From assembly GCA_903901045.1 (NCBI GenBank), contig CAIUPP010000088.1, forward strand, positions 1-64,000: a stretch of 64,000 bases of DNA, given 5' to 3'. Every line of letters starts with the position of its first letter. Position 1 is the stretch's first letter. Positions 20,920 to 40,401 of this stretch are shown here, one piece after another. The stretch comes from an uncultured Planctomycetota bacterium (GTDB taxonomy: Bacteria; Planctomycetota; Brocadiia; CAIUPP01). A program made the position numbers and the translations under genes. The notes under the pieces were generated by a model. The model made no database searches. It saw nothing but the letters and a program-made list of their open reading frames with translations, and was not told the origin of the DNA.

Positions 20920-21150
20920 GACTCTTATCTCCTATGGGCGCGGGCGGGATTTCTTCCGCGCTCCGCGCATAATATGGGAATTCATGAATTGCGATGTTGG
21001 GGGGAGAAGCCGCACCGACGCCCCGGCGTTCGGCGCGGATCGCGCCAACGCGCAAGCGTCTCTTCCAGCAACGGGCGGCTTCTATATCAGACAGTGGTCA
21101 TATGGACGTAATGGTAACGAAGAATGGTCGAAGCGTCAAGGCAAAAAAAT

Positions 21151-21189
21151 GGGGACACAAAACTTTCCCGCGGAAAGTATTGTGTCCCC
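21151..21189 (-). terminator. REP-like palindrome acting as candidate rpoB terminator
   Basis: Arms GGGGACACAAAACTTTCC (21151-21168) and its near-perfect complement (21172-21189; one mismatch) close on a CGC loop, giving an 18-bp stem 24 nt after the rpoB stop. On the minus strand the hairpin is followed by ATTTTTTT, so it has the form of a Rho-independent terminator. The arm sequence is related to the GGGGACATAATACT palindrome at 61930-61980, so this is probably a mobile palindromic repeat co-opted as the terminator. The rest of 20920-21213 holds no gene. Confidence 0.7.
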
Positions 21190-21213
21190 AGATTCACTCA
21201 GCCAACTCACGTC

Positions 21214-24200
21214 CTACGGAAGCTCTTTCCGGCGCTGCATCTCCAGCTTCAGGCCGAGGCCGCGGACTTCGTTCATCAGCACCTCGAAGGAAACCGGGGT
21301 GCCCGCTTCAAGGACGTTGCTGCCCTTGACCATGGACTCATAAATCTTCGCGCGGCCCTCGATGTCGTCGCTCTTGACGGTGAGCAGTTCCTGCAGGGCA
21401 TAGGCGGCGCCGTACGCCTCCATGGCCCACACTTCCATTTCGCCGAAGCGCTGACCGCCGGAACGCGCCTTGCCGCCGAGCGGCTGCTGCGTGACGAGCG
21501 AGTACGGCCCCGTCGCGCGCGCGTGGACCTTGTCGTCCACCAGGTGGTCCAGCTTCATCATGTACAGGTAGCCCACGGTGACCTTCTGCTCGAAGGGCTC
21601 GCCGGTGCGGCCGTCGTACAGTTGCGCCTTGCCATCCTCGGGCAGCCCCGCTTCATGCAGGGTGTTGCGGATATCCTCCTCGTTGGCCCCGTTGAAGACC
21701 GGGGTGACGACGCGGAAGCCCAGCGTCCTGGCGGCCCAGGCCAGGTGCGTTTCGAGGATCTGCCCGACGTTCATGCGGCTGGGTACGCCCAGCGGATTGA
21801 GCACCACCTGCACCGGGGTGCCGTCGGCCTGGTAAGGCATGTCCTCCACCGGCAGGATGCGGGCGATGACGCCCTTGTTCCCGTGGCGGCCGGCCATCTT
21901 GTCACCCACCGACAGGGTGCGCTTGGTGCAGACGTAGACCTTGACCATTCCCAGCACGCCGCTGGGGAGCAGGTCGTCGGCCTGGGAGGGGTCGATCCCC
22001 AGCGCGTCGCGCTCATCCTTGAGGTGGTCGAGCTGCTTGCGGGCGTCTTCGGAAATCTTGAGAACTTTTTCGCGCGTGGCGGCCGTCGGGGCGGCCACTT
22101 CGGAGGCGTCGAACTGCTCCTCGTACTGGAGCACTTCGCGAACGGTCGCGTGAGAGCGCAGAGAAAGGTCCTGGCCGGTATCGGCGTGGCGCAGCTTGTT
22201 GCCGGCGGTCTTCGTGATCTCGGCGAGCAGGTCGCGAATGATCTGAGCCATCTGCCGTTCGAGTTTGTCCACCTGCTTCTTGCGGGCGGCGGCGGCTTCG
22301 TGCTGGCTCTTGGAGGCGGCTCCCTTGCGGCTGAACTTCTCGGTGGCGATGATGACGCCTTCCAGGCCCGCGGGGGCTTCGAGCGATTCGTTCTTCACGT
22401 CTTCGCTGGCCTGCCCGAAGATGGCGATGAGCAGCTTCTCTTCCGGGGTCAGTTCGGTCTTGGACTTCGGGGAGACCTTGCCCACGAGGATGTCCCCCGG
22501 GCGGACGTGCGTGCCGACGCGGACGATGCCTTCATCATCCAGGTTGGCCAGCGCGCGCTGCGGGACGTTCGGAATATCGCGGGTGAACTCCTCCTTGCCC
22601 AGCTTCGTCTCGCGGCATTCGATTTCGAATTCCTGGATGTGCAGCGAGGTGAACTTGTCCTGCTGGACGAGCTCCTCGCTGATCAGGATGGCGTCTTCGA
22701 AGTTGTAACCGTCCCAGGGCATGAAGGCCACCAGGATGTTGCGGCCCAGAGCGAGCTCGCCCTGGGCCGTCCCGGCGCCGTCGGCGATGATATCCCCCTT
22801 CTTCACTTTCTGCCCCAGCTTGACGATCGGCCGCTGGTTCAGGCAGGTCTTCTCGTTAAGGCCCATGAACTTCTTGAGCCGGTACAGCTTCTCGGCGATG
22901 ACGATCTTCCCCGCGTCCACGTCGGTCACTACGCCGCTTTCTTCGCAGCGCACGACCATGCTGGAGTCGCGGGTGACTTCCGGCTCCATGCCGGTGCTGA
23001 TGATGGCGGCCTCGGTGACCAGAAGCGGGACGGCCTGCTTCTGCATGTTGGAGCCCATCAGCGCGCGGTTGGCGTCGTTGTGTTCGAGGAACGGGATGAG
23101 GCTGGCCGAGACGCCCAGCAACTGGTTGGGCGCCACGTCGGCAAACTCGACGATCTTCGGGTCGGCTTCCTGGAAGTCGCCGTTGCGGCGGGCAATGACG
23201 CTGGCATCGACGATCTTGCCGCTGCGCGCGAGGCGCAGGTCGGCCGGGCCCATCCAGCGGTCGATTTCCTCATCGGCGCGCAGGCTGACCACGTCGTCGG
23301 TGATCACGCCACCCTTGACGCGGCGGTACGGCGTGACGATGAAGCCGTAGTCATCCACGCCGGCATAGATGCCCAGCGAGGTGATCAAGCCGATGTTGGC
23401 GCCTTCAGGCGTCTCAATCGGGCAGATGCGGCCGTAGTGGCTGATGTGCACGTCGCGCACTTCGAAGCCGGCGCGCTTGCGGTTCAAGCCGCCTGGGCCG
23501 AGGGCCGACAGCTTGCGTTCGTGCGTCAACTGGTGCAGCGGGTTGGTCTGCTCGACCACCTGCGACAGTTCGCTGCGCCCGAAGAAGAACTCGATGGCGG
23601 CGGAGATGGTCTTCGAGTTGACCAGCATCCGCGGGGTGAGGTCCCCGATTTCGCCCATGCCCATGCGTTCCTGCACGGTGCGCCGAAGCTTGAGGAACCC
23701 CTTGCGCAACTCGTCGCCGGCCAGTTCGTCGATGGTGCGCAGGCGGCGGTTGCCGAGGTGGTCGATATCATCCACGTGCCCTTCGTTGCGGCGCAGGCGC
23801 AGGATGTAGCGCACGCTGTTGACGATGTCGAGCGCATCGAGCATCATCCGGTCCGCGGAGACGTTCTGGTCGAACTTGCGGTTCAGGCGGAAGCGCCCCA
23901 CCGAGCCGAGGCGATACCTCTCGGGATCCAGGAAGCGCTCCTGGAAAAGTTCCTTGGCGCGGTCGAGGCTGGGCGGGTTGCCCGGGCGCAGGCGGCTGTA
24001 AATCTGCAGCAGCGCCTCCTCGTGCGTTTTGGCGGTGTCCTCGTTCAGGGTGTTGAGCATCAGCGCGTCGTCCATCTTGGTGATGAGGCGAATGCGCTTG
24101 CGGTCCAGCGCGATGATACGCGGGATGAGGTCGTCGGTGATCTGCTGCCCGGCCGTGACGACCAGCTCGCCGGTCGTGCGGTCCACGACGTCTTCGGCGC

Positions 24201-24891
24201 TGTAGCGATGGCGCAGTTTGCTGCCGCCTCGCTGGGGGATTTCCTCGAACTCCGTTTCGTAGAAGAGCTTGATGATGTCCGCGTTGGTGTTGTACTCGGC
24301 GGACATGGCGCGGATGAAGCAGGTGATCGGGAAGCGGCCGCTCTGGTCCACGCGGATGTAGAGGACGTCTTTGCGGCTGACGTCCACTTCGATCCAGCTT
24401 CCGCGCTCCGGGATGATGCGGCAGGAGTGCAGGCGCTTTTCGGTGGTGCGGGTGTCTTCCTGGAAGTCCACGCCGGGGCTGCGGTGCAACTGCGCGACGA
24501 TCACGCGGTGCGCGCCGTTGACGATGAATTCTCCGCCGCCCAGCATGATGGGGACGTCCCCGAGGTACACGTCTTCCTGAATGGATCCTTCCGGCTTGAC
24601 GATGCGCAGGCGGGCGCGCAGCGGACGCCCGTAGGTCAGCCGCAGCCGGCGGCAGTCCTCGGGGCTGTAGCGCGGCCGGCCCAACTCGTAGCAGATGTAG
24701 TCGAGCGAAAGCTTCCCGTCGTAGCTTTTGATCGGGAACATTTCGCGGAAGAGCGCTTCCAGGCCGACGTTCTTCCGGCTCTTGGCCGCGGCCGATTCCT
24801 GGAGGAACCGGGCGTAAGAGCGCGTCTGAACTTCGACGAGGTTCGGCACGGGGACAATATTCTTCGTGCGAGAGAAATCGCGAGTCTGCAT
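21214..24891 (-). CDS. rpoB: DNA-directed RNA polymerase subunit beta, relocated
   Basis: 1225 aa, full length. The beta subunit forms one pincer and part of the active site of RNA polymerase. The rifampicin region (23513-23590) reads SELSQVVEQTNPL then ALGPGGLNRKRAGFEVRD; KMAGRHGNKG, the active-site motif, and the C-terminal GKARSGGQRFGEMEVWA are intact. GAGGAG lies 8 nt before the ATG. Its position is abnormal: it follows rplQ, not rplL, and rpoC is about 19 kb upstream in the same cluster. Repeat words flank it on both sides. Only one rpoB is in the window and it shows no sign of decay. Confidence 0.97.
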   Translation of the reverse strand: MQTRDFSRTKNIVPVPNLVEVQTRSYARFLQESAAAKSRKNVGLEALFREMFPIKSYDGKLSLDYICYELGRPRYSPEDCRRLRLTYGRPLRARLRIVKPEGSIQEDVYLGDVPIMLGGGEFIVNGAHRVIVAQLHRSPGVDFQEDTRTTEKRLHSCRIIPERGSWIEVDVSRKDVLYIRVDQSGRFPITCFIRAMSAEYNTNADIIKLFYETEFEEIPQRGGSKLRHRYSAEDVVDRTTGELVVTAGQQITDDLIPRIIALDRKRIRLITKMDDALMLNTLNEDTAKTHEEALLQIYSRLRPGNPPSLDRAKELFQERFLDPERYRLGSVGRFRLNRKFDQNVSADRMMLDALDIVNSVRYILRLRRNEGHVDDIDHLGNRRLRTIDELAGDELRKGFLKLRRTVQERMGMGEIGDLTPRMLVNSKTISAAIEFFFGRSELSQVVEQTNPLHQLTHERKLSALGPGGLNRKRAGFEVRDVHISHYGRICPIETPEGANIGLITSLGIYAGVDDYGFIVTPYRRVKGGVITDDVVSLRADEEIDRWMGPADLRLARSGKIVDASVIARRNGDFQEADPKIVEFADVAPNQLLGVSASLIPFLEHNDANRALMGSNMQKQAVPLLVTEAAIISTGMEPEVTRDSSMVVRCEESGVVTDVDAGKIVIAEKLYRLKKFMGLNEKTCLNQRPIVKLGQKVKKGDIIADGAGTAQGELALGRNILVAFMPWDGYNFEDAILISEELVQQDKFTSLHIQEFEIECRETKLGKEEFTRDIPNVPQRALANLDDEGIVRVGTHVRPGDILVGKVSPKSKTELTPEEKLLIAIFGQASEDVKNESLEAPAGLEGVIIATEKFSRKGAASKSQHEAAAARKKQVDKLERQMAQIIRDLLAEITKTAGNKLRHADTGQDLSLRSHATVREVLQYEEQFDASEVAAPTAATREKVLKISEDARKQLDHLKDERDALGIDPSQADDLLPSGVLGMVKVYVCTKRTLSVGDKMAGRHGNKGVIARILPVEDMPYQADGTPVQVVLNPLGVPSRMNVGQILETHLAWAARTLGFRVVTPVFNGANEEDIRNTLHEAGLPEDGKAQLYDGRTGEPFEQKVTVGYLYMMKLDHLVDDKVHARATGPYSLVTQQPLGGKARSGGQRFGEMEVWAMEAYGAAYALQELLTVKSDDIEGRAKIYESMVKGSNVLEAGTPVSFEVLMNEVRGLGLKLEMQRRKELP

Positions 24892-24927
24892 CCGATTGGC
24901 TCCTCATAACGTCAAATGGGGACGGAC

Positions 24928-24954
24928 CAATGGGCAATCCCCGCTTGCCCATTG
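24928..24954. repeat. Inverted repeat between rplQ and rpoB
   Basis: CAATGGGCAA (24928-24937) and its exact complement TTGCCCATTG (24945-24954) flank a 7-nt spacer, followed by a further TGCCCAT. The same word bounds the inverted repeat in the rplL-rpoC gap (47880-47994). A second weak hairpin (arms 24977-24984 and 25004-25011, GGCGCATG) sits just after the rplQ stop. Neither has a T tract on the minus strand, so read-through from rplQ to rpoB is plausible. Confidence 0.6.
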
Positions 24955-25017
24955 CCCATCAACTTCGTTCCGCTCCGGCGCATGACACCGCCGTGAGAGC
25001 GTGCATGCGCCCGATCG

Positions 25018-25422
25018 TCAGCCGGCCTTTTCCGCCGTCGCCGGTTCCGCCACCTTGGCCTCGCCCACGAGTTCCATGATGACCTGAGGAGCATTGTCCC
25101 CCAGGCGGTTCTCGCTGCTGGCCAAGCGCAGGATGCGCACGTACCCGCCCGGACGGTCCTTGTACTGAGGAGCGATCTCCTTGAAGAGCCGTCGCGCGAT
25201 GAACTTGTCGTCCAGCATGGAGAGAACCAAACGGAAGTTGGTGAGGCTCCCCTCGCGAGCCAGCGTAATCAGCTTCTCGGCGAAGCTGCGGCACTCTTTA
25301 GCCTTGGCCGGGGTGGTGCGAATGCGCCCCAGCAGGAAGAGGTTGCTGACCAGATTGCGGCGCATCGCTTCGCGATGGGCCGAGGTGCGCTTGAGATGAC
25401 GTCCACGCCTGCGGTGCCGCAT
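25018..25422 (-). CDS. rplQ: 50S ribosomal protein L17
   Basis: 134 aa. L17 lines the large subunit near the exit tunnel. The start RHRRRGRHLKRTSAHREAM and the segment LITLAREGSL are diagnostic. A short Glu/Ala-rich tail follows residue about 115. It normally ends the alpha operon; here rpoB follows after 126 bp. The gap to rpoA is 2 bp. Confidence 0.96.
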   Translation of the reverse strand: MRHRRRGRHLKRTSAHREAMRRNLVSNLFLLGRIRTTPAKAKECRSFAEKLITLAREGSLTNFRLVLSMLDDKFIARRLFKEIAPQYKDRPGGYVRILRLASSENRLGDNAPQVIMELVGEAKVAEPATAEKAG

Positions 25423-25424: not shown

Positions 25425-26453
25425 CTACTCCTCCTTGGCCGGGGGTGGCTGAGGCACGGTGACGCCTTCGACTTGCATGCCGAGGGTCAATCCCAGCTCT
25501 CCCAGTTTCTTCTTCACTTCTTCAAACGAGGTGCGACCGAAGTTCCGCACCTGCATCAGGCGCTCTTCGGTATATCCGACCAGGTCGCCGACGACCCGGA
25601 TGTTCTCGCTTTCGAGGCAGTGCGAGGAGCGCACGCTGAGCTCCAGTTCGCTGATAGGCAGGGCCAGCTTGGCGCTGAGGTCTTCCGCCAGGACGGGGCG
25701 GATCGGCGACAGGCTGCCGGCCGCTTCGGGCTCCTGCACTTCGGCGCCCAGTTCGACCTGCTGGACGAACGGGTTGAGGTGCTTGCGGAGGATCTTGGCC
25801 GATTCGACCAGGGCAAGGTCCGGCACCACGGTGCCATCGGTCCAGATTTCCAGGACGAGACGGTCGTAATTGGTGCGCTGACCCACGCGCGTGTCCTCGG
25901 TGCGATAGCGGACACGTATGACCGGGCTGAACACGCTGTCCACCGGAACGCGGCCGATCTCCTGGCCTTCCTTCTCGTTCTCCTCGGCGGTGCGGTATCC
26001 GCGTCCCTTCTCGGCGGTCATTTCGCACACGAAGCTGGCAGCTTTCGTGAGGGTGGCCAGGTGAAGGTCCTTGTTGGCCACTTCCACGTCCGCTTCGCAC
26101 TGGATATCCGCGCCGGTGACGTCTCCCTTGCGCTTGACGTCGATGCGCAGGATGGCGGGCCGGTCGCTGGTGATCTTGACGCGCAACTGCTTGAGGTTCA
26201 GGATGACCTCGGCCACGTCCTCGAGGACGCCGTCGATCGTGCTGAATTCGTGCAGGACGTTCTCGAAGCGCACCGTCGTGATGGCGGCGCCTTCCAGCGA
26301 CCCCAGCAGCACGCGCCGGAGGCTGTTCCCAATGGTGGAACCGAAGCCGCGTTCAAACGGCTCGATATTGAACTTTGCGTAGTTATGGGTCTTGGTTGCC
26401 TCCTCGCAGACGACCTTCGTCGGCAGCTCAAAACCTCTCCATCGAATCCGCAT
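25425..26453 (-). CDS. rpoA: DNA-directed RNA polymerase subunit alpha
   Basis: 342 aa. The N-terminal domain (about 1-235; RGFGSTIGNSLRRVLLGSLEGAA split by the dimer helix) seeds polymerase assembly. The C-terminal domain (about 265-330; LELSVRSSHCLESENIRVVGD) binds promoter UP elements and activators. The start is the ATG at 26453 with GGAGGAG 7 nt upstream; the open frame extends nine codons further without a ribosome site. A Pro-rich tail ends the protein. Confidence 0.96.
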   Translation of the reverse strand: MRIRWRGFELPTKVVCEEATKTHNYAKFNIEPFERGFGSTIGNSLRRVLLGSLEGAAITTVRFENVLHEFSTIDGVLEDVAEVILNLKQLRVKITSDRPAILRIDVKRKGDVTGADIQCEADVEVANKDLHLATLTKAASFVCEMTAEKGRGYRTAEENEKEGQEIGRVPVDSVFSPVIRVRYRTEDTRVGQRTNYDRLVLEIWTDGTVVPDLALVESAKILRKHLNPFVQQVELGAEVQEPEAAGSLSPIRPVLAEDLSAKLALPISELELSVRSSHCLESENIRVVGDLVGYTEERLMQVRNFGRTSFEEVKKKLGELGLTLGMQVEGVTVPQPPPAKEE

Positions 26454-26498
26454 AGACACTCCTCCCGTTCTAAAGGGCAAGGCGCGAGGTCACATCCC

Positions 26499-27128
26499 TT
26501 ACCGCGAGCAAATTTCCACGATAAGCTGAGGCTCGAACCCTTCGGCCAACTCGCCCGGCTTCGGCAATGAAATCACGCGCACTTCGATAGGGTCCGGCTG
26601 CACCTCCAGCCAGGAAGGAACGGCACGCCCCTGATTGTAGTCGCGGTTCGCTTTGAACAGGCTGATGATCCGCTCCACCGGGCGGGGCTTGAGCACGTCG
26701 GTCCCCTTCACCAGGTAGCTGGAGCGGTTGCAGCGTTCGCCGTTGACCCAGACGAGTCCGTGGGCGATGATCTGGCGAGCCTGGCGGCGCGATGTGGCCA
26801 GCCCGGCGCGGTACAGAACGTTGTCCAGCCGGCGTTCGAGCAACTGGAACAAGCTCTCGCCCGTGTTGCCCGGAAGGCGCTCGGCCATCCGGAACAGGCG
26901 GCGGAACTGCGCCTCGCGCAGGCCGAACGTCCGCTTGCAGCGCTGCTTCTCGCGGAAGCGCACGGCATATTCGCTGATTTTGCCGCGGCGGAACGGGTGC
27001 ATCCCGGGCGGATAGTCCCGCCGCTGGAAAGCGCACTTCGGGCTTTCGCAACGCGGACCTTTGAGGAACAGCTTGGTGCCTTCCCGGCGGCACAGTTCGC
27101 ACTTTGAGATGTTCTGTTGCTTCGGCAT
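26499..27128 (-). CDS. rpsD: 30S ribosomal protein S4
   Basis: 209 aa. S4 nucleates 30S assembly by binding the five-way junction of 16S rRNA. The N-terminus holds a zinc-ribbon Cys set (CELCRREG then CESPKC), the C+ form. The S4 RNA-binding domain begins at LERRLDNVLYRAGLA. The usual role as alpha-operon repressor is possible here but no leader structure was identified. Confidence 0.96.
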   Translation of the reverse strand: MPKQQNISKCELCRREGTKLFLKGPRCESPKCAFQRRDYPPGMHPFRRGKISEYAVRFREKQRCKRTFGLREAQFRRLFRMAERLPGNTGESLFQLLERRLDNVLYRAGLATSRRQARQIIAHGLVWVNGERCNRSSYLVKGTDVLKPRPVERIISLFKANRDYNQGRAVPSWLEVQPDPIEVRVISLPKPGELAEGFEPQLIVEICSR

Positions 27129-27163
27129 TCCTGTTTCCTTACTGTCGGGTCGTCATGACCGGC

Positions 27164-27541
27164 TCAGACACGCCGCTTCTTGCGCGGACGGCAGCCATCG
27201 TGCGGCAAAGGTGTCACGTCTTCGATGCTGCGCACGGCAATCCCCGCCGCCTGGAGCCCGGTGACGGCGGACTCCCGCCCGGAACCGGGGCCTTTAACCT
27301 TCACTTCCACCTCGCGTACGCCGAGTTTCTTGGCTTTGTCGGCCACCTGCTCGGCCGCTTTCTGGGCCGCAAACGGCGTACTCTTGCGCGAGCCCTTGAA
27401 TCCCCCCGTGCCCGCACTGTCCCAGCAGAGCACCTCGCCGGCAGGATCGGTGATGGTGATGATGGTGTTGTTGAAGGTCGCCTTGATGTGCGCGACCGCC
27501 TTCGTAATCGTCCGACGTACTTTCTTTCGAGCCTTAGCCAC
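27164..27541 (-). CDS. rpsK: 30S ribosomal protein S11
   Basis: 125 aa. S11 sits on the 30S platform by the E site. Motifs [27 protein letters not shown] and the C-terminal [18 protein letters not shown] are canonical. It lies between rpsM and rpsD. Confidence 0.97.
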
Positions 27542-27612
27542 CGGCCACTCTCCTTTTCACTGCCGCGCGTTAGCCCTGAGCGAGCGCCGCGTCGGCGGCG
27601 CGAGTCGAAGGG

Positions 27613-27999
27613 TTAGGTGCGCATCTCCTTGACGCCCTTCTTCCCGGCCACGGTCTTGCGCGGGCCTTTGCGGGTACGGGCGTTGGTACGAGTCCTCTGG
27701 CCGCGCACGGGCAGCCCGACGCGGTGACGAATCCCACGATAGCAGCGAATTTCCTTCAGGCGCGCGATGTTCTGCGCTTCCTGACGGCGCAACTGCCCCT
27801 CGGTCATATAATGGTCTTCGATGTACGCGCCGAGGCGGCTCAACTCGTCCTCGGTCAGTTGCTTGGCGCGCTTCTCCGGGTCCACGCCGGTGGCCCCAAG
27901 CACGTCCAGCGCATTCTTCGGCCCGATGCCGTAGATGTAGCGCAACGCAACTGCGATCTTCTTGTCGGCCGGAATGTCAACACCAGCAATCCTAGGCAT
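27613..27999 (-). CDS. rpsM: 30S ribosomal protein S13
   Basis: 128 aa. S13 sits in the 30S head and bridges to the 50S and P-site tRNA. The start [13 protein letters not shown], the YIYGIG turn and the tail [18 protein letters not shown] are diagnostic. It is 11 bp behind rpmJ. Confidence 0.97.
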
Positions 28000-28010
28000 T
28001 TATCCTTCTC

Positions 28011-28124
28011 CTATCCCTGCCGCTGCTTGTGGCGCGGGTTCTTGCAGATGACGCGCACGACGCGCTTGCGCCGCACGATCTTGCAGCTTTCACATATTCT
28101 TCGGACTGACGCGCGAACCTTCAC
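28011..28124 (-). CDS. rpmJ: 50S ribosomal protein L36
   Basis: 37 aa, GTG start. The frame reads (M)[16 protein letters not shown] and ends NPRHKQRQG. The zinc set is C11, C14, C27 and H32, the canonical zinc-binding form. AGGGAGGG lies just upstream of the GTG. The position between infA and rpsM is the conserved one. Confidence 0.93.
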
Positions 28125-28153
28125 CGCACCCTCCCTGGCAGAGCCTAAGCTTC

Positions 28154-28369
28154 TCAGCTTCTGTAAACGATGCGTCCGCGGCCCAGGTCGTACGGGGAGA
28201 TCTCCACCGTCACCTTGTCCCCAGGCAGTATGCGGATCCAGTTCATCCGCATTCTCCCGGAAACGTGGGCCAGGACCATGTGTCCGTTATCCAGCACAAC
28301 TTTGAACATGGCGTTCGGAAGCGCTTCTTTCACAACGGCTTCGACTCGGATCGATTCTTCCTTCGCCAT
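28154..28369 (-). CDS. infA: Translation initiation factor IF-1
   Basis: 71 aa. A single OB fold ([19 protein letters not shown], then [18 protein letters not shown] and [13 protein letters not shown]) that binds the 30S A site during initiation. Normal length, 4 bp behind map. Confidence 0.97.
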
Positions 28370-28373
28370 AACT

Positions 28374-29129
28374 CTACGTTCTCTCCAGCGTCAGGATGTC
28401 CGGACCGTTCTTCGTGATCGCCACCGTATGCTCGAAGTGCGCCGACAGCGACCTGTCACGGGTTACCACGGTCCACCCGTTGCTCAGCACTTCCACATCG
28501 GCCTTGCCGGCGTTGATCATCGGCTCGATCGCCAGCACGGTTCCTTCCGGCAGCGCCACATCTCCCATGGCGCGGGTGAAGAAGTTCGGAACTTGCGGTT
28601 CCTCATGCATCTCCCGCCCGATCCCATGGCCGGTGTACTTGCGGACCACCGAGTAGCCGCGCGCTTCGACGAACTCCTGGATCGCCCGGCACAACGTCCC
28701 CAGGCGCATCCCCGGCTCCAGCGTCGCAATCCCGGCGTCCAGCGCTTCGCGACACGCATCCGACAGCGCCCGCGCCTCCGGACTGATCCGCCCCACCGGC
28801 ACGGTCACGGCCGCGTCGCCGCAGTACCCGTTCAGCCGCACGCCCACGTCCACGCTGAGGAGGTCTCCCTCCTTCAACGCCCGCGGCCCGGGAATACCGT
28901 GCACCACTTCCTCGTTGACGCTGGTGCACAGGCTCTTGGGGTACCCGCGGTACCCTTTGAAAAGCGGCGTCCCGCCGCGCTTGCAGATCAGCGCCTCCGC
29001 TTCCCGGTCCAGATCTTCAGTTGTCAAACCCGGCGCGGCGGTCCGACCGCACATCGCCAGAACCTCGGCGACGATCCGCCCCGCTTCGCGCATGCATTCG
29101 ATTTCGCGCGACGAGCGCCGGACGATCAC
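28374..29129 (-). CDS. map: Type I methionine aminopeptidase
   Basis: 251 aa. It removes the initiator Met from nascent chains. The dinuclear metal ligands are recognisable in [19 protein letters not shown] (two Asp), [12 protein letters not shown] (His), and the Glu pair in [11 protein letters not shown] and near the C-terminus. No N-terminal zinc finger is present. Its start overlaps the adk stop by 4 bp. Confidence 0.96.
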
Positions 29130-29788
29130 CGACCGCTCCCTGACAGCTTCTCCAGCGCCTTCAGCACGGCGGCTGTCACTTCATCGGGAGCGCGGTTCGC
29201 ATCAACGGTTATCAGCAGCCGCCGCGCCCGGTACTCACCGATCAGCGCCTCGGTCTGCCGTCCGTACACACTCAAGCGTTCGCGGATCGTCTCCGCCTTG
29301 TCGTCGCTGCGCTGGTACAGTTCGCCGGCGCACCGGTCGCATACGCCCGGCTTGGCCGGCGGCATGTACTTCACGTGGTACCCGGCGCTGCATCCCTTGC
29401 ATATGCGCCGCCCGCTGAGACGCTCGATGGCCGTCTCCTCGGTCACGTCAAAGTACATCACCCCGTCCAGCTTCTTCCCAGCCTTCAGCAGCAATCCATC
29501 CAGCGCTTTGGCCTGCCCGACGGTGCGAGGATAGCCGTCGAACATCACGCCACCCGCGCAATCCGGCTGCGCGATGCGCTCGGCCACCATCGCCGTCGTC
29601 AATTCGTCAGGCACCAACTGCCCGGAGTCCAGGTACTTCTTCACTTGGCGGCCCAGAGCGGTCTGGTTCGCCAGGGCGGCGCGGAACAGGTCCCCCGTCG
29701 AAACGTGGGTCAGCCCGTAACGCTCCTGAATTTTCTTGGCCTGCGTGCCCTTTCCGGCGCCAGGCGGGCCCAGCAGTACCAGGTTCAA
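29126..29788 (-). CDS. adk: Adenylate kinase, zinc-LID form
   Basis: 220 aa. It interconverts ATP + AMP and 2 ADP. The P-loop is GPPGAGKGTQ (about 7-16), with DGYPRTVGQA as the AMP/Walker-B region. The LID has CKGC and CDRC, a four-Cys zinc site. It overlaps secY and map by 4 bp at each end, so the three are translationally coupled. Confidence 0.96.
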   Translation of the reverse strand: MNLVLLGPPGAGKGTQAKKIQERYGLTHVSTGDLFRAALANQTALGRQVKKYLDSGQLVPDELTTAMVAERIAQPDCAGGVMFDGYPRTVGQAKALDGLLLKAGKKLDGVMYFDVTEETAIERLSGRRICKGCSAGYHVKYMPPAKPGVCDRCAGELYQRSDDKAETIRERLSVYGRQTEALIGEYRARRLLITVDANRAPDEVTAAVLKALEKLSGSGR

Positions 29789-31173
29789 AATCGCCTCCGC
29801 GTCCCGCGCGTGAATCCTTCATAGTGGCGAACCAGCAATTGCGCCTCGACTTTCTTGACCAGGTCGAGCGCAACGCCGACCGCGATCAGGATGCTGGTGC
29901 CGCCGAAGAATTGCGTCACCTGCCAAGGCAACCCCAGCGCGCGCTGCATCAGCGAAGGGATGATCGCGATGAGCGCCAGCGAGGCGGCTCCAGGCAACGT
30001 GATGCGCGTCATGACCCGCTCCAGGTATTCCGCAGTGCGGCGGCCCGGTCGGATGCCCGGGATGAACGACCCGTGCTCCTGCAGGTTCTTGGCCATGTCG
30101 GTCGGATTGAACGTAATTGCCGTCCAGAAGTAGCAGAAGAAGAAAATCAACGCAACATACAGGGCCGTGTAGGTGAAGCTGGCCCTGCTGAGCGTGGTGT
30201 TGAAGACGTGCGCGATGGCATACACGGTGGTGTTCGCCCACGGGCCGCCCTGGTCGGTGCGCTGTTCGAGGAACTGAAAGCCGACGGCCGGGAACATGAG
30301 CAGCGACTGGGCGAAGATGATGGGGATCACGTTCGCCGCGTTGACCTGGATGGGCAGATAGTGCTTCATGCCGCCAAACACGCGCCGTCCGCGCATTTGC
30401 TTGGCCTGCTGGAACGGGATGCGCCGCTGGCCCTGCGTGATGTAGATGATCGCCAGCACGACGAAGACGAAGGAGGCAAGCAACGCGAGCACGCCGATGA
30501 CTCCAAATCGCCCCTCGGCTTTGCCGGTGAGCCCGAAGTCGAAACTCGTTCCCATCACATCGTAGATGGCGAAGGGCAAGCGGGCGATGATGTTGGTCAT
30601 GATGATCAGCGACACGCCGTTGCCGATTCCGTATTCGTCAATCTGCTCGCCGATCCACATGAGCATCATGGTGCCGACCGTCAGCAACAAGCCGGCCATC
30701 ACCAGCATTCCCAGGCCGAAGTCCGGGAAGATCTGCGCGTTCATATTGCCGCCGACGGTGCGGATGATCATCATTCCCTGGAAGAAGCAGAGCAGCACGG
30801 TGGCATAGCGGGTCCACTGGTGGATCTTCTTGCGCCCCGCCTCCCCTTCCTCGCTGATCTTCTTGAACGCCGGGATGACCTGCACGAGGAGCTGGAAAAT
30901 AATCGACGCGCTGATGTACGGCATCACCCCCAGCGCGAAGACGCCCAAGTTCTGCAGGCCGCCGCCGCTGAAGATGTTGACGAGGCCCATCAACTGCCCC
31001 GCGCTCCCGCCCTGGCCAACCACCTGGTCGAAGTAGCTCTTCAGTGCGGCCAGGTCCACCCCAGGGACAGGGATATACACGCCGATCCGGCAGATGCACA
31101 GCAGCGTGATGGTGATCAGCAGCCGCCTGCGCAACTCCGGGACACGAAGCGTGTTGCCAAGAGTTTCCAGCAT
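29785..31173 (-). CDS. secY: Protein translocase subunit SecY
   Basis: 462 aa, about ten TM helices. SecY is the channel of the Sec translocon in the inner membrane. The plug region follows IPVPGVDLAAL; GVMPYISASIIFQLLVQV and the cytoplasmic loop GQRRIPFQQAKQMRGRR are family signatures. It starts 1 bp inside the rplO stop region and ends overlapping adk. Confidence 0.96.
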   Translation of the reverse strand: MLETLGNTLRVPELRRRLLITITLLCICRIGVYIPVPGVDLAALKSYFDQVVGQGGSAGQLMGLVNIFSGGGLQNLGVFALGVMPYISASIIFQLLVQVIPAFKKISEEGEAGRKKIHQWTRYATVLLCFFQGMMIIRTVGGNMNAQIFPDFGLGMLVMAGLLLTVGTMMLMWIGEQIDEYGIGNGVSLIIMTNIIARLPFAIYDVMGTSFDFGLTGKAEGRFGVIGVLALLASFVFVVLAIIYITQGQRRIPFQQAKQMRGRRVFGGMKHYLPIQVNAANVIPIIFAQSLLMFPAVGFQFLEQRTDQGGPWANTTVYAIAHVFNTTLSRASFTYTALYVALIFFFCYFWTAITFNPTDMAKNLQEHGSFIPGIRPGRRTAEYLERVMTRITLPGAASLALIAIIPSLMQRALGLPWQVTQFFGGTSILIAVGVALDLVKKVEAQLLVRHYEGFTRGTRRRF

Positions 31174-31619
31174 TACAGTTCTTTCACCTCGCCACCGGCC
31201 TCGCGAATCTTCTCGACGGCCGACTGGCTGAATTTATGCGCCTGGACTTTGAGTGGCACTTCCAGGGCGCCGGTTCCCAGAACTTTCAGGCCGCCCTTCG
31301 ACAGCTTGCCGATGGTTCCGGATTTGATCAGGAACTCCGGGGTGATCTCGGTGCCGGCGGCGAAACCGTTCAGGTCGCCGACGTTGACCACCGTGTATTC
31401 GATGCGATACTTGGCGTTGTTGAAGCCGCGCTTCGGAAGACGCTTGAACAGCGGCGTCTGACCGCCTTCGTAGGCGTTCATCCCGCTGTGACCGGCGCGC
31501 GCGTTGGCTCCCTTGTGACCGCTGCCGGAGGTCTTGCCATGGCCGGACCGGGGGCCGCGTCCGCGACGCTTGCGGCTCTTGTGCTGAAGCGACGTTTTCT
31601 TGATTTCTATGAGGTTCAT
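31173..31619 (-). CDS. rplO: 50S ribosomal protein L15
   Basis: 148 aa. L15 is a late-assembly protein of the large subunit. The Gly/Arg-rich N-terminal extension (RGRGPRSGHGKTSGSGHKG) and GFNNAKYRIEYTVVNV fit the family. It overlaps rpsE by 4 bp; no rpmD (L30) is present between them. Confidence 0.96.
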   Translation of the reverse strand: MNLIEIKKTSLQHKSRKRRGRGPRSGHGKTSGSGHKGANARAGHSGMNAYEGGQTPLFKRLPKRGFNNAKYRIEYTVVNVGDLNGFAAGTEITPEFLIKSGTIGKLSKGGLKVLGTGALEVPLKVQAHKFSQSAVEKIREAGGEVKEL

Positions 31620-32119
31620 TCCAGCGACACTCCTCTGAGCTGAGCGGCTTCCTCTTTGGTGCGCAGTTTGCTGAGCGCGTCAAAAGTGGCCTTGACCAGG
31701 TTGACCGGGTTGTTCGTCCCGTAGGACTTGCTCAGCATGTTCTTGACGCCGGCCAGTTCCACCACCGCGCGGACGCAGGAGCCGGCGCTGATGCCGGTGC
31801 CCGGGACGGCGGGGATCAGGATCACTTTGCTGGCGCCGTAACGGCCGGTCACTTCGTGCGGGATGGACCCGTCGGAGACCTTCAGCTTGCGCAGGTTGCG
31901 GTGCGCGTCGCGGGTCGCTTTTTCCATGGCGCCCGGGACGTCGTTGGCCTTGGCGAAGCCGAAGCCCACCACGCCGTTGCGATTCCCGCTGATGACCAGC
32001 GCGCTGAACGAGAACCGGCGTCCGCCCTTGACGACCTTGGCGGTGCGGTTGATTCCCTTTTCGACCACGCGGTCTTCCAGGGAGATGTTCCGCGTGTCAA
32101 TGACTGCATCTCTTCTCAA
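31616..32119 (-). CDS. rpsE: 30S ribosomal protein S5
   Basis: 167 aa. S5 takes part in mRNA helicase activity and decoding fidelity. RTAKVVKGGRRFSFSALVI is the double-stranded RNA-binding-like domain, and PAVPGTGISAGSCVRAV the C-terminal domain. Normal length; followed directly by rplO. Confidence 0.96.
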   Translation of the reverse strand: MRRDAVIDTRNISLEDRVVEKGINRTAKVVKGGRRFSFSALVISGNRNGVVGFGFAKANDVPGAMEKATRDAHRNLRKLKVSDGSIPHEVTGRYGASKVILIPAVPGTGISAGSCVRAVVELAGVKNMLSKSYGTNNPVNLVKATFDALSKLRTKEEAAQLRGVSLE

Positions 32120-32137
32120 GTGAAGCTCCTTCTGGCG

Positions 32138-32506
32138 CTAGAAGACCAATCCGCCCTCGCGCGCGGCTTCGGCCAGGGCCTTGACGCGGCCATGGTATTT
32201 GCGGCCGCCGCGGTCGAAGCAGACGGCGGTGACGCCGCGGCTGCGTGCGACGGTAGCGATCTGTTTCCCGACCATCTTGGCGGCGCCCACGTTCTTGCCG
32301 GACTTGATGGCGGCGCGAATCTCCGGGGTCAGGGTGCTGGCGGCTGCGAGGACGCGCCCCGAGCCGTCATCAATCACCTGAGCGTAGATGTGCGTCTGGC
32401 TGCGGTACACCATCAGCCGCGGGCGCTCCGCCGTCCCCTGGACCTTGTTTCGCACGCGGTGGTGCCGCTTCTTCAATGCGATCTTTTTCTTCATCGTGCT
32501 GTTCAT
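32138..32506 (-). CDS. rplR: 50S ribosomal protein L18
   Basis: 122 aa. L18 binds 5S rRNA in the central protuberance with L5. [18 protein letters not shown] and the C-terminal [20 protein letters not shown] are diagnostic. Confidence 0.96.
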
Positions 32507-32545
32507 GGCGCGCTATTCGTCTCTCTAAGAGTGAGCAGACTACCC

Positions 32546-33109
32546 TTACCCGCCGGCTCCCACGAACGCCTTGCCGGCCTTGCGACGGACGACTTCGTCA
32601 GAGTACTTGATTCCCTTGCCCTGGTACGGTTCGGGCGGACGGACCCCGCGCAGGCTGGCGGCGAACTGCCCCACCATCTGCTTGTCGGCGCCGCTGACGG
32701 CCAGTTTCCCCGGGTTGGTCGCCTGGAGCACTTCCAGTTTGATTCCCTGCGGGACCGGCATCTTGACGGCGTTGCTGAATCCCACGTCCAGGACCACCGC
32801 ATTTCCCTCGGCTTTGACGCTGTAGCCGATGCCGACCACTTCCAGCTCTTTGCGGTATCCCTTGGTGACGCCCAGCACCATGTTGTTGACCAGGCTGCGC
32901 TCGAGCCCGTGGAGCATGCGGTGCGGCTTGCTCTCGGAGGCGCGCTTGAGAAGCACCTGATGCTTGGCTTCGTCCACCTCGGCGGTGATGCCGTTGTTCA
33001 GCTTGCGTTCGAGTTTGCCCAGCGGCCCCTCGACGGTGACGCTGGCGCCCTTGATCTGCACCTTCACCTTGTCGGGGATGGCGACGGGCATTTTTCCGAT
33101 TCGTGACAT
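32546..33109 (-). CDS. rplF: 50S ribosomal protein L6
   Basis: 187 aa. L6 sits near the sarcin-ricin loop and the factor-binding centre. Two similar alpha/beta domains are visible, with MSRIGKMPVAIPDKVKV at the start and PEPYQGKGIKYSDEVVRRK near the end. Confidence 0.97.
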   Translation of the reverse strand: MSRIGKMPVAIPDKVKVQIKGASVTVEGPLGKLERKLNNGITAEVDEAKHQVLLKRASESKPHRMLHGLERSLVNNMVLGVTKGYRKELEVVGIGYSVKAEGNAVVLDVGFSNAVKMPVPQGIKLEVLQATNPGKLAVSGADKQMVGQFAASLRGVRPPEPYQGKGIKYSDEVVRRKAGKAFVGAGG

Positions 33110-33148
33110 TGGTTTCCTGACTCCCTCAAACGGCCGGGGCCGTTTCGG

Positions 33149-33547
33149 CTACCAGACCTTGCACAACACTTCGCCGCCGAGCTGCTGCTTGCGGCACTCA
33201 CGGTCGCTGAGCACCCCTTTGGAGGTGCTGATCACGGCGATGCCGATCCCTCGCAGGACCGGATCCAGCTCGGTGTAGCCGCGATAGACGCGCCGGCCGG
33301 GGCGGCTTTCCCGCTGAATCTCCTGGATCACCGGCTCGCCGAGCCGGCTGTACTTCAGGTAGACGCGCGCCAGGCGCGCCTTGCCTTCTCCCTCGTCCTT
33401 GAAATCGGCGATGAACCCCTCGCGCTTCAGCACTTCAAGCACCTGCGCCTTCTCTTTGGAGTAGGGAACGTCCACCGACGGATGACGCACGCGAACCGCA
33501 TTGCGGATGCGCGTCAGCAAATCGGCGATCGGGTCCGTCATGCTCAT
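33149..33547 (-). CDS. rpsH: 30S ribosomal protein S8
   Basis: 132 aa. S8 binds helix 21 of 16S rRNA. The start MTDPIADLLTRIRNA and the C-terminal GIAVISTSKGVLSDRECR are canonical. In other bacteria it represses the spc operon; no target site was assigned here. MSMTDP gives two possible Met starts. Confidence 0.96.
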   Translation of the reverse strand: MSMTDPIADLLTRIRNAVRVRHPSVDVPYSKEKAQVLEVLKREGFIADFKDEGEGKARLARVYLKYSRLGEPVIQEIQRESRPGRRVYRGYTELDPVLRGIGIAVISTSKGVLSDRECRKQQLGGEVLCKVW

Positions 33548-33572
33548 CGGCTCTCACCCTCCAAACCTGCGA

Positions 33573-33761
33573 TTACCAGCTGGCCTTGTGAATTCCGGGG
33601 ATCGATCCCTCGGAGGCGAGCTTGCGCAGGCAGATCCTGCAAATCTGGAATTTCCGGTAGTACGCCCGCGGCCGCCCGCACAGCATGCACCGGTTGCGAT
33701 GGCGCACGGCGAACTTCGGCGTCGGGTTCATCGTCTTGTTCATCAGGCATTTTCTGGTCAT
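33573..33761 (-). CDS. rpsN: 30S ribosomal protein S14, type Z
   Basis: 62 aa, the short zinc-binding form. The Cys set is C25, C28, C41 and C44 (CMLCGRP and CRICLRKLA). The protein ends [11 protein letters not shown], the standard S14 end. It overlaps rplE by 4 bp. Confidence 0.96.
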
Positions 33762-34318
33762 GCGCGGGCCCTATCTTCGTCGCGACGGAACGGCAACCCC
33801 AGCTGTCGCAGCAGCTCACGCGAGGCTTCGTCCGATGCGCCGGAAATCGTGAACGTGATGTCCATCCCCTGGACGAACTCCACCTTGTCGATATTGACGT
33901 CCGGGAAGACCGACTGCTCCGCCAAGCCCAGGGTGTAGTTCCCACGCCCGTCGAACGCATTCGGGTTGAAACCGCGGAAGTCGCGGATACGCGGAGCCGC
34001 CAGGCTGATGAGGCGGTCCAGGAACTCGTACATCCGCTTGCCGCGCAGCGTCACCTTGCAGCCGATCTCCAGCCCTTCGCGCAGCTTGAAGGCCGATACG
34101 GACTTCTTGGCGCGGGTGATGAGCGGCTTCTGGCCGGTGATGGTGGCCAGGTCGCGCGCGGCATCCTCCATGCGCTTCTTGTTCTCCGTCGCCTTGCCGA
34201 CTCCCATGTTCACGGTGATCTTCAGGAGACGCGGCGCCGCCATGCGATTCGTGTACCCGAACTGTTTCATCAGTTCAGGAGCCACTTTTTCCTTATATGC
34301 GTCGAGCAGTCGAGCCAT
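33758..34318 (-). CDS. rplE: 50S ribosomal protein L5
   Basis: 186 aa. L5 binds 5S rRNA and contacts P-site t[37 protein letters not shown] and the C-terminal [10 protein letters not shown] are diagnostic. Confidence 0.96.
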
Positions 34319-34359
34319 CTGTGCCGATCCTCATGATGGGCGCGGTAGGAGCCAACGGG

Positions 34360-34746
34360 TCAGCGCGACCCGCCGACGACCTCGCCGCACCGCTTACAAA
34401 CACGGAGAACTTCGCGCCGCCGCTTGCCGCGCGTGTCCGTTTTTTCGTTAACCTGCATCCGCACGCGCGCCGGCCCATTGCACTTGCCGCAATAGAGCAT
34501 GACGTTCGACAGGTGAATCGGCGCTTCCTTGGCTACGCGCCCGCCCTGCGGGTGCTTCTGGCTGCGGCGGACGTGGCGGTAGACGTAGTTGACGCCTTCC
34601 ACGACGACGCGCTCGTCATCTTTCAGCACACTGAGGACGCGGGCCACCGAGCCCTTTTCTTCCTTGCCGAGGGCCTTCCGGTCCAATTGCTTGGCGCCGG
34701 TGATGGCCTTCGTCAGCACGACCTGATCATTTTTTCGTATGCGCAT
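34360..34746 (-). CDS. rplX: 50S ribosomal protein L24, with zinc-ribbon-like Cys pairs
   Basis: 128 aa. L24 starts 50S assembly. A KOW-like core (RKNDQVVLTKAITGAKQ) is followed by VEGVNYVYRHVRRSQKHPQGG and PIHLSNVMLYCGKC. Two CxxC pairs (CGKC and CKRC) could bind zinc in the C-terminal half, a form found only in some lineages. Confidence 0.93.
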   Translation of the reverse strand: MRIRKNDQVVLTKAITGAKQLDRKALGKEEKGSVARVLSVLKDDERVVVEGVNYVYRHVRRSQKHPQGGRVAKEAPIHLSNVMLYCGKCNGPARVRMQVNEKTDTRGKRRREVLRVCKRCGEVVGGSR

Positions 34747-34765
34747 ATTGGCGTTCCTTCCCTCG

Positions 34766-35134
34766 CTAGACCACTTCGGCCGCGAGGGAGATGATCTTCA
34801 TGAAATTCTTCTGGCGCAGCTCTCGCGCGACCGCACCGAAGATACGGGTCCCCCGAGGGTTCCCTTCCGTGTCAATCAATACCACCGCGTTGCGGTCGAA
34901 CCGAACCAAGGAGCCGTCCGGACGCGTCACGGGGGACTTGGTGCGAACGACCACGGCGCGCACAATGGTTCCTTCTTCCAACTCGCCACCGGGCACGGCC
35001 TTCTTGACCGAGCCGATGATCACGTCGCCCACTCCGGCGTACCGGCGGCGGGTGCCGCCGAGCACTTTGAAGCAGTAGACGACTTTCGCGCCGGTGTTGT
35101 CGGCGCAGTCCATCCGTGTCTGTTCTTGAATCAC
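34766..35134 (-). CDS. rplN: 50S ribosomal protein L14
   Basis: 122 aa. L14 bridges to the 30S subunit. [19 protein letters not shown] and the C-terminal [18 protein letters not shown] are highly conserved. It overlaps rpsQ by 4 bp. Confidence 0.97.
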
Positions 35135-35415
35135 GACACAACCTCGCTTCCCTGACGGGCGCTCCGGCTGACGACGCGCACCAGACGCCAGTGCTTCGTC
35201 TTGCTGATCGGCCGGCTCTCCATGATCTCAACGGTATCGCCCTGCTTGGCCTCGCCGGCCTCGTCATGCACGCGGTACAACGTGACGCGCTTGACGTACC
35301 GGTGATACTTGGCATGCTCCACCAACCGCACCGCCTTGACGACGAGCGTCTTGTCCTTGGGGGCGCGATCCACTATCCCGGTGGCCGTCCTGCGTCGGCT
35401 TCGTGTTTCACTCAT
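35131..35415 (-). CDS. rpsQ: 30S ribosomal protein S17
   Basis: 94 aa. An OB-fold protein binding helix 11 of 16S r[21 protein letters not shown], then [16 protein letters not shown]. It overlaps rpmC and rplN by 4 bp each. Confidence 0.96.
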
Positions 35416-35654
35416 GCCTTCTGCGACCTTTCCTTGGCGCCAGCGCCCTGCGGGGCGCGCCCTTCGGCCAGTTCCCGCTCGCGCAGGGCCGTCAACAACT
35501 TGGCGATATCGGTCTTCAACTTGCGCAATTCGGCCGGGCGCTCCAGCTGCTCGGTTTCGCGCTGAAACCGGAAGTTGAACAGCGCCTTCTTCTTCTGCCC
35601 CACCAGCTGGACGATCTCCTCGCTGGGCATTTCGCGAATTTCGGCAATCTTCAC
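35412..35654 (-). CDS. rpmC: 50S ribosomal protein L29
   Basis: 80 aa. A two-helix protein by the exit tunnel: MKIAEIREMPSEEIVQL, then LFNFRFQRETEQLERPAEL and the second helix. The Ala/Gly/Lys tail (about 65-80) is an extension. It overlaps rplP by 4 bp. Confidence 0.95.
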   Translation of the reverse strand: MKIAEIREMPSEEIVQLVGQKKKALFNFRFQRETEQLERPAELRKLKTDIAKLLTALRERELAEGRAPQGAGAKERSQKA

Positions 35655-36061
35655 TGACGTGGCCTCCGCTTCAAGAGCCGAACGCGGATCGGCAGCTTGT
35701 GGGCCACCCGGTTCAGCGCTTCACGCGCGGTCTCTTCCGGCAGACCGCCAATCTCATACAGCACGCGGCCCGGCTTGATGACCGCGGCCCAGTACACCGG
35801 TTCGCCCTTGCCGGAACCCATGCGCACTTCCGCCGGCTTGCCGGTCAGCGGCTTGTGGGGGAATACGCGGATCCACAGCTTGCCTTCGCGGCCCATGAAG
35901 TGCTGGGCGGCGACGCGGCCGGCTTCGATCTGCCGAGCGGCCAGCCAGGCATAGTCCAGCGCCTGAAGACCGAACTCGCCGAACGCAACCGTGTTCCCGC
36001 GAGTCTCTTCGCCGCGCAGGACGCCGCGCTGGGATTTGCGGAACTTAACTCTTTTGGGCAT
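35651..36061 (-). CDS. rplP: 50S ribosomal protein L16
   Basis: 136 aa. L16 organises the A-site region. The start is the ATG before PKRVKFRKSQRG; the frame is open for another 41 codons inside rpsC but is not L16-like there. GREGKLWIRVFPHKPLTGKP and GSGKGEPVYW are diagnostic. It overlaps the rpsC 3' end by 17 bp. Confidence 0.96.
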   Translation of the reverse strand: MPKRVKFRKSQRGVLRGEETRGNTVAFGEFGLQALDYAWLAARQIEAGRVAAQHFMGREGKLWIRVFPHKPLTGKPAEVRMGSGKGEPVYWAAVIKPGRVLYEIGGLPEETAREALNRVAHKLPIRVRLLKRRPRQ

Positions 36062-36728
36062 CAACGCCAAGGCCGGCCTCCTTCTCAGCGACAGCATCGG
36101 CCTCGGTGACGAGGCCATGGTTGATCCATACTTTGACGCCGATGTGCCCCATGGTCGTATGGGCTTCGGCGAATCCGTAGTCAATCCGGGCGCGCAGGGT
36201 GTGGAGCGGGACGGAGCCGACGCGGATCAGTTCGCGGCGGGACATTTCCGCGCCGCCCAGGCGACCGGCCAGGCGGATGCGCACGCCTTTGGCGCCGGCA
36301 TCCATGCTGGCGTCGGTGGCTTTGCGCGCAGTGCGCTTGAACGAGGCGCGCTTGGCCAGCTGCTCGGCCATTCCTTCGGCGACCAGCTGCGCGCACATTT
36401 CCGGGCGGTGAATCTCGACGATGCGGATGTCCACCTTGCGCTTGCAGATTTCTTCAATCCGCGCACGCAGACGGTCCACTTCGGAGCCCTTCCGGCCGAT
36501 GATGACGCCGGGGCGCGCGCAGTGCAGGATGACGCGCACTTCTTCGCGCGTGCGCTCGATGTCGATGCGCGCGATCATGGCGAACGCGTAGTTCGCCTTG
36601 ACGAACTCTCGCAGGCGCCTGTCCTCGACCACCAGCTTGCCGAATTCCTTCTTACCGGCATACCAGCGCGAGCGCCAGTCTTCGATGATTCCGAGACGGA
36701 ACGAAATCGGATGTACTTTCTGACCCAT
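36045..36728 (-). CDS. rpsC: 30S ribosomal protein S3
   Basis: 227 aa. S3 lies at the mRNA entry channel. MGQKVHPISFRLG opens it; the KH domain holds GVIIGRKGSEVDRL; the C-terminal domain has ARIDYGFAEAHTTMGHIGV. Normal length. Confidence 0.96.
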   Translation of the reverse strand: MGQKVHPISFRLGIIEDWRSRWYAGKKEFGKLVVEDRRLREFVKANYAFAMIARIDIERTREEVRVILHCARPGVIIGRKGSEVDRLRARIEEICKRKVDIRIVEIHRPEMCAQLVAEGMAEQLAKRASFKRTARKATDASMDAGAKGVRIRLAGRLGGAEMSRRELIRVGSVPLHTLRARIDYGFAEAHTTMGHIGVKVWINHGLVTEADAVAEKEAGLGVDAQKS

Positions 36729-36752
36729 GTTTCCTCCAGGCCGGCGCTGTGA

Positions 36753-37115
36753 CTAGCGCCGCCCTTCTGCTTTGGGCGTCTCTTCCGGCGACGAGATGAC
36801 CAGATGTATATGGCTGCTGCGGAAGCGCATGCGCGCGGCCATTCCTCGCGGCCGAGCAAACCAACCTTTGCGCACGGGGCCTGAATCCACCCAGGCGCGC
36901 GAAATCACAAGCGAGTCGGGTTCCACGTCAAAGCGCTCGCCCGCGGTAGCGACGGCGGACTTGAGCAGCTTGGCGACCATCGGCGAGCCGCGCTTCCGGG
37001 TCATCCGCAGGATGTTGAACGCCTCATCCACCCGGACGCCGCGGACCAGGTCCACCACCAGGCGCACCTTGGTCGGCGCGATGCGTGCATGACGATAAGC
37101 GACTTTCAGTTCCAT
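36753..37115 (-). CDS. rplV: 50S ribosomal protein L22
   Basis: 120 aa. L22 lines the exit tunnel. RHARIAPTKVRLVVDLVRG, then VISRAWVDSGPVRKGWFARPRG and the tail are canonical. Confidence 0.96.
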   Translation of the reverse strand: MELKVAYRHARIAPTKVRLVVDLVRGVRVDEAFNILRMTRKRGSPMVAKLLKSAVATAGERFDVEPDSLVISRAWVDSGPVRKGWFARPRGMAARMRFRSSHIHLVISSPEETPKAEGRR

Positions 37116-37135
37116 GGATATTTTCCCTGCGTATG

Positions 37136-37441
37136 TCAGGAGGCGGTCGGGGCTGCTGCCGCGGCGGCCGCTTCCTTGGCCTTCCGGCCGCTATGGCCGC
37201 GGAAGGTGCGCGTCGGGGCGAATTCCCCCAGCCGGTGTCCCACCATCTCCTCGGTCACGAACAGCTTGATGAAGGTCTTGCCGTTGTGAATGGAGAAGTT
37301 GTGGTTCACGAATTCCGGCAGTATGACGCAAGCGCGGCGCCACGTCTTGAGCGGCTCACGATCGCCGCTCTGCTTCTGCGCGCGCACGCGCGCCACCAGC
37401 TTCGCGTCTACATTCGGGCCTTTTTTGATCGAACGGCTCAT
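37136..37441 (-). CDS. rpsS: 30S ribosomal protein S19
   Basis: 101 aa. S19 pairs with S13 in the 30S head. MSRSIKKGPNVDAKL and KTFIKLFVTEEMVGHRLGEF are diagnostic; the last about 10 residues are an Ala-rich extension. Confidence 0.96.
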   Translation of the reverse strand: MSRSIKKGPNVDAKLVARVRAQKQSGDREPLKTWRRACVILPEFVNHNFSIHNGKTFIKLFVTEEMVGHRLGEFAPTRTFRGHSGRKAKEAAAAAAAPTAS

Positions 37442-37468
37442 GCGTTAGACTCCACTGAGTTTCTAGAA

Positions 37469-38305: not shown

Positions 38306-38337
38306 TGCGTTTTCCTCGGCCCTGCGGCCGTTCTCGC

Positions 38338-39889: not shown

Positions 39890-39908
39890 AACAACACTCC
39901 TGTAAGGA

Positions 39909-40217: not shown

Positions 40218-40401
40218 TGCCTTACACATCCCCGCATACACGCGGACGAGAAAACACGGGTCATTTGATGCATTCTCCCTATACCCTCGATCCGCCAACG
40301 GCGGTCCGGGCAGCACAAAATCGTTACGTTCGTGGCGCAAAGACTGGTAATATAACCGTTTCGCATCGTCTTGTCAAACGCATTTCAACGGAAAAACGGG
40401 G

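Follow-up and report, generated by a model that had tools for sequence, protein, structure and literature searches.

Relocation of rpoB away from rpoC to a position behind rplQ in two related uncultured planctomycetes, and divergence of the encoded beta subunit

Few gene pairs in Bacteria are as stable as rpoB and its neighbour rpoC, and a 64,000 nt stretch of DNA from an uncultured planctomycete, probably of the class Brocadiia, raises the question of how a lineage could come to part these two genes, and what has become of the polymerase whose subunits they encode. In this stretch (the window, which is the first 64 kb of the 103,487 bp contig C88 of genome G000), the gene for the RNA polymerase beta subunit (rpoB, 21214..24891, minus strand) follows rplQ, and the gene for beta-prime (rpoC, 43525..47640, minus strand) directly follows rplL. 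Candidate reasons for the persistence of the pair are dosage balance between beta and beta-prime, co-translational assembly and history, and since this lineage has parted the two genes but left the surrounding cluster as it was, it offers a natural experiment for weighing them. The change in gene order is accompanied by measurable change in the protein, including at residues that are invariant in 111 other RpoB sequences. No published description of rpoB behind rplQ with rpoC left behind turned up in the open-licence literature searched.

The genome G000 is a metagenome-assembled genome (MAG) of 4,771,131 bases in 154 contigs (94.1% complete, 3.06% contamination). The original prediction, that rpoB is present behind rplQ as a single, intact gene on the same strand, was borne out by gene order and by profile searches: the gene specifies a protein of 1225 aa scoring 1559 bits against TIGR02013 (cut-off 801), and the whole genome has one match to this profile and one to PF00562, so that the second, conventional copy that might have explained the arrangement away was not found among its bases. 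The rpoC gene is also single and specifies a full TIGR02386 protein. Its open reading frame (ORF) extends over 43525-47649, but the start at 47640 given by the original prediction is probably right, because it aligns with the start in a related genome, G001, and this leaves a gap of 397 nt between rplL and rpoC.

Misassembly has to be considered in a MAG of 154 contigs, but both junctions are found again in a genome of a different genus. G001 belongs to the same family (f1) and is the only other genome of this order compared, so that two of two share the arrangement. Its contig C230 carries rpoA-rplQ-rpoB and its contig C7 rplL-rpoC-rpsL-rpsG-fusA, with both junctions internal to their contigs; the two contigs end within fusA, as would be expected if its array matches that of G000. 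RpoB and RpoC of the two genomes are 84% and 86% identical. Since the novel junctions recur contig-internally in a second genus, neither misassembly nor chance can account for them, and misassembly is in practice refuted. rpoB has been relocated out of a very stable pair and, because the relocation is common to both genera compared, it is probably of single origin. The original prediction also held that the move uncouples beta from beta-prime, which is true in so far as the genes are now separated, but both remain on the same strand, about 18.6 kb apart, within one 31 kb cluster.

How unusual this order is was judged by comparing rpoB and rpoC positions by eye from profile-search tables, and the rule of rplL-rpoB-rpoC, on which the original prediction had relied, was upheld in related genomes. 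Among the Brocadiia, rpoC was checked in 58 of 75 genomes (two of the 75 belong to family f1): the two genes are neighbours in 54, separated in G000 and G001, and unreadable in two, one with both genes at contig ends (G018) and one with fragments only (G020). The conventional order is found in G002, a member of another family (f2) of the same class, and in members of families f3 and f5, and the other families of the class have it wherever the order was readable. In a sample of 118 genomes from across the phylum (at least 90% complete, nine common to the class set), the genes are neighbours in 113 and separated only in G000; the remaining four are unreadable, with pieces at contig ends (G084, G125, G149 and G156). 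Two of the neighbouring pairs have wide gaps, of 1.4 kb in G081 and 2.4 kb in another planctomycete (locus L171, G131:C235). Finally, 80 loci were kept for inspection out of 579 confirmed ones. In 79 of them rpoB is followed by rpoC in the same orientation, the exception being a contig that ends at rpoB, and rplL is visible upstream of rpoB in 75.

At the first novel junction (24892..25017, minus strand), rplQ (25018..25422, minus strand; TIGR00059) is separated from rpoB by 126 nt, and the corresponding gap is 151 nt in G001. Both genomes share an AGGAG-type ribosome binding site (GAGGAGCCAAYCGG-ATG) before rpoB, and a sequence scan of the gap found no promoter-like or terminator-like match in either of them. 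Immediately upstream of rplQ is rpoA (25425..26480, minus strand; profile match). Behind rpoB in G000 is a hairpin with 19 nt arms of 95% complementarity followed by a T run (21150..21190, minus strand), a likely end of the transcription unit, and in G001 a gene for an FtsJ-like methyltransferase follows closely downstream. Because the gap is free of such signals, and because the hairpin and T run come only after rpoB, co-transcription with the alpha operon is the simplest reading and a likely one. The original prediction also suggested that such an order may mirror the assembly of the enzyme from alpha2 through beta to beta-prime. At the second junction (47641..48037, minus strand), the gap between rplL (48038..48436, minus strand; TIGR00855) and rpoC is 297 nt in G001, as against the 397 nt of G000, and both exceed every rplL-rpoB gap in 29 conventional relatives of the class (33–213 nt, median 45). 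A promoter scan of a 5.9 kb region of G000 gave two matches, compared to 0.4 in shuffled sequence, and these include a site in the rpoC leader (TGGACG-18-TATACT, the second hexamer being preceded by TG; 47762..47791, minus strand) that is predicted to be a new rpoC promoter. A partly separate start for rpoC within its lengthened leader is therefore possible.

The route that we favour, with a probability of roughly 0.6, is a tandem duplication of the segment from rpoB to rplQ followed by asymmetric loss. Such a duplication would create the rplQ-rpoB junction at once and without the cell ever losing beta, and the present order would result once the first rpoB and the second rpoC-to-rplQ segment had been lost. 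The alpha operon would then have rpoB as its final gene, and rpoC would gain a partly independent start. A period with two copies of rpoB, or strong selection on RNA polymerase, could have let beta change rapidly, and linked substitutions in the rifampicin pocket could be part of this, in the order D516E with R529K and then R687K. That rpoB stayed within the 31 kb cluster and kept its orientation fits a local segmental event. Segmental duplication with asymmetric loss has been proposed for changes in this very cluster (PMC8046335), which in that study, as here, is an array on one strand with operons placed end to end, and the relocation is thus of a kind already known for it. The study covers 204 genomes, mostly from Gammaproteobacteria and Bacilli, and the relevant parts of its main text report no lone rpoB behind rplQ with rpoC remaining in its old place.

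Alternatively, rpoB could have been cut out and put back behind rplQ through recombination, either illegitimate or driven by an element, with no duplicated intermediate. What speaks for such a single-gene transposition is a dispersed intergenic repeat (core CAATGGGCAAT) that has 26 exact copies in G000 (none with a reversed-pattern control), and whose exact copies in the window number just three, at 24928, 47880 and 47984, all of them within the two novel gaps. G001 has both junctions but not one exact copy anywhere in its genome, so the repeat either came later or was lost; recombination driven by it was rejected as the cause of the junctions on these grounds, and the repeat is probably a later guest. 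Excision would presumably also leave the cell without beta in the meantime, and the return of the gene to the same cluster and strand would be a coincidence. Transposition is thus an unlikely alternative to the duplication route.

Beyond the relocation itself, the beta subunit of the f1 family has an unexpectedly long stem branch and pocket changes found across the lineage, and these may be causally linked to the move. Across 32 genomes, f1 RpoB is 57–63% identical to that of the other eight families, and RpoC 62–73%. When f1 and f2 are compared for their identity to five other families (at most 17 genomes per gene), the deficit of f1 is 6.6 percentage points for RpoB but only 0.4 for RpoA, 1.2 for RpoC, 0.1 for L1 and −0.5 for L12. 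On two fixed topologies the stem leading to f1 has a length of 0.499 and 0.484 for RpoB, about 1.8 times the values for RpoC (0.272 and 0.258), and it stands out most among the 51 branches (z of 2.70 and 2.75); free trees give RpoB/RpoC stem ratios of about 2.0 and 1.7. The tip branches within f1 are ordinary. Relative-rate counts between G000 and G002 with ten outgroups average 134 to 85 for RpoB and 91 to 84 for RpoC (p of 0.11 to 0.94 for the latter). Eight of ten segments of the protein are more divergent than in f2 (ratios of 1.14–1.57) and the other two are close to parity (0.94 and 0.98). By these sequence comparisons, the relocated RpoB has changed unusually much.

Some of the change falls at residues that are otherwise fixed. 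An alignment of 113 RpoB proteins contains 227 columns that are invariant in the 111 sequences from outside f1, E. coli included, and five of these are changed in both G000 and G001 (E. coli numbering): E142H (residue 128, codon 24508..24510), D516E (residue 447, 23551..23553), R529K (residue 460, 23512..23514), R687K (residue 618, 23038..23040) and A709T (residue 640, 22972..22974), all codons being on the minus strand. The same count for 19 other focal groups, which comprise one to ten genomes, overlap in some cases and so are not strictly comparable, gave 0–4 changed columns, none at a position on a working list of 17 rifampicin contacts. Three of the five f1 changes are on that list, 12 members of which are among the 227 columns (p = 0.0011). 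D516E, R529K and R687K lie near the rifampicin pocket. In E. coli, R529K alone confers high-level rifampicin resistance and several substitutions at position 516 raise resistance, and changes at R529 are, on average, among the most costly to fitness (Yang 2023, PMC10550828); Asp516 and Arg687 are listed as ligand contacts in a docking study (PMC11364244). Unlike the substitutions studied in E. coli, those of f1 are natural and shared by a lineage, and they yield testable predictions on the drug response of the polymerase of this uncultured lineage, just as the junctions do for its operon structure.

The distribution of these residues was followed in a protein search that scored 8000 RpoB sequences and listed the best 120. 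All 26 RpoBs in the f1 range of the list (P0003–P0028, 69–97% identity) carry 516E, 529K and 687K; they include G001's own RpoB (P0004) and the closest relative on the list with an organism name, 'Candidatus Brocadiia bacterium' (P0007, 83% identity). Of the other 94 listed, six metagenomic proteins (P0032–P0036 and P0050) have 516E and 529K with R687 kept, and 88 keep all three of the E. coli residues, so that 516E and 529K, with six occurrences each, fit joint occurrence only. In a FastTree phylogeny of 66 rows, these six proteins form the sister group of f1 (99% local support). The changes probably came stepwise, 516E with 529K, then 687K, and then those at 709 and 142. A search of the 75 class genomes for a close relative of P0036 found none (best full-length match, 69% identity), and a pattern scan of viral contigs for further members of the family gave no match.

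Actinomycetes with duplicated rpoB also have a divergent beta that is altered in its rifampicin region (rpoB(R) of Nonomuraea and rpoB2 of Nocardia; PMC5431353). These differ from G000 in having two copies of the gene and the pair H526N and S531Y, whereas G000 has one copy, keeps H526 and S531, and carries 516E, 529K and 687K instead. The f1 family might have swapped its beta, an antibiotic-tolerant second rpoB that arose as the terminal gene of the alpha operon having displaced the ancestral copy between rplL and rpoC to become the sole beta gene. This would have left a polymerase that is insensitive to rifamycins throughout the lineage and a rewired order with beta after alpha, but we regard this as a speculative and rather improbable outcome.

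A number of observations weigh against the duplication route, or against tying the protein changes to the move. The duplication is not seen directly: G000 retains no second copy of rpoB, and a search of the gaps for leftovers of rpoB or rpoC gave nothing convincing, the lowest E-value among the matches listed (0.005, behind the G000 rpoB) being read as chance. The promoter-like site before rpoC is particular to G000, as the same scan did not find it in G001. Other planctomycete classes also have wide spacings upstream of rpoB (e.g., loci L032 and L037), so that a long gap by itself says little. RpoB is not the only protein with an identity deficit, as L17 (rplQ) and L10 (rplJ) show 4.4 and 2.2 points, and the relative-rate result for RpoB depends on the outgroup, with p ranging from 5e-6 to 0.18 over the ten. 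The pocket enrichment falls to p = 0.081 (two of five changes; 23 of 227 columns) when the 38-residue site of PMC10550828 is used, so that it depends on the choice of residue list and is suggestive at most, and the substitutions in the pocket may be older than the relocation of rpoB. Lastly, the approximately unbiased (AU) test accepts all five trees tried for RpoB, in which f1 is placed with f2, with other families or outside the class (p of 0.22–0.57), and for this reason vertical descent is not proved.

This last result bears on a further alternative, xenologous replacement, in which a foreign rpoB, from a planctomycete not yet sampled, entered behind rplQ and the cell's own copy was deleted. 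A foreign gene would fit a long RpoB stem beside ordinary RpoC and RpoA, and the AU test accepts a tree in which f1 RpoB branches outside the class (p = 0.515). RpoC is equally unplaced, though, with all five of its trees accepted, including the one outside the class (p = 0.359), and the nearest group in the 66-row tree is the P0032 clade, which lies inside the ingroup, with no closer donor. A foreign origin by composition was rejected, as the G+C content of rpoB (0.647 overall, 0.892 at third codon positions) is ordinary and matches that of the host (0.639 and 0.880 for rpoC). Replacement from outside is slightly less likely than transposition, and duplication with asymmetric loss is preferred to both.

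The genes around the two junctions form one minus-strand array, in the order tuf, tRNA-Trp, nusG, rplK, rplA, rplJ, rplL, rpoC, rpsL, rpsG, fusA, the S10, spc and alpha genes, rpoA, rplQ and rpoB. Between rpoA and rpoC, the intervening cluster (26499..43494, minus strand; rpsD-rpsK-rpsM through the S10 genes to fusA, rpsG and rpsL) is colinear in G001 and largely so in G002. The part upstream of rplL (48543..52786, minus strand) holds rplJ, rplA, rplK, nusG, tRNA-Trp and tuf. Of these, fusA and rplJ were identified by profile and the tRNA by a tRNA scan; the other names, several of them for small genes, are provisional and backed by colinear matches in relatives.

Fused rpoB-rpoC genes are known in Helicobacter and Wolbachia, and like f1 they depart from the arrangement of two adjacent genes, but in the opposite direction, by fusion instead of separation. 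A possible natural fusion of beta and beta-prime was seen in another planctomycete (L174, G078:C3:13662-21404), where rpoB and rpoC matches lie in one frame of 2620 aa. In two Brocadiia (G040:C184 and G052:C12), rpoB or rpoC has in-frame stops or split frames, perhaps from assembly errors. A further member of the class (L175:1572-7691, G037:C124) has, besides normal rpoB and rpoC, a single frame of 2039 aa with divergent beta and beta-prime domains (Pfam Rpb2 and Rpb1), and one may guess that this chain is the polymerase of a mobile element. In a genome of the same genus (L176, G017:C3, about 1325047-1326916), divergent rpoB-like pieces lie about 25 kb from its rpoB.

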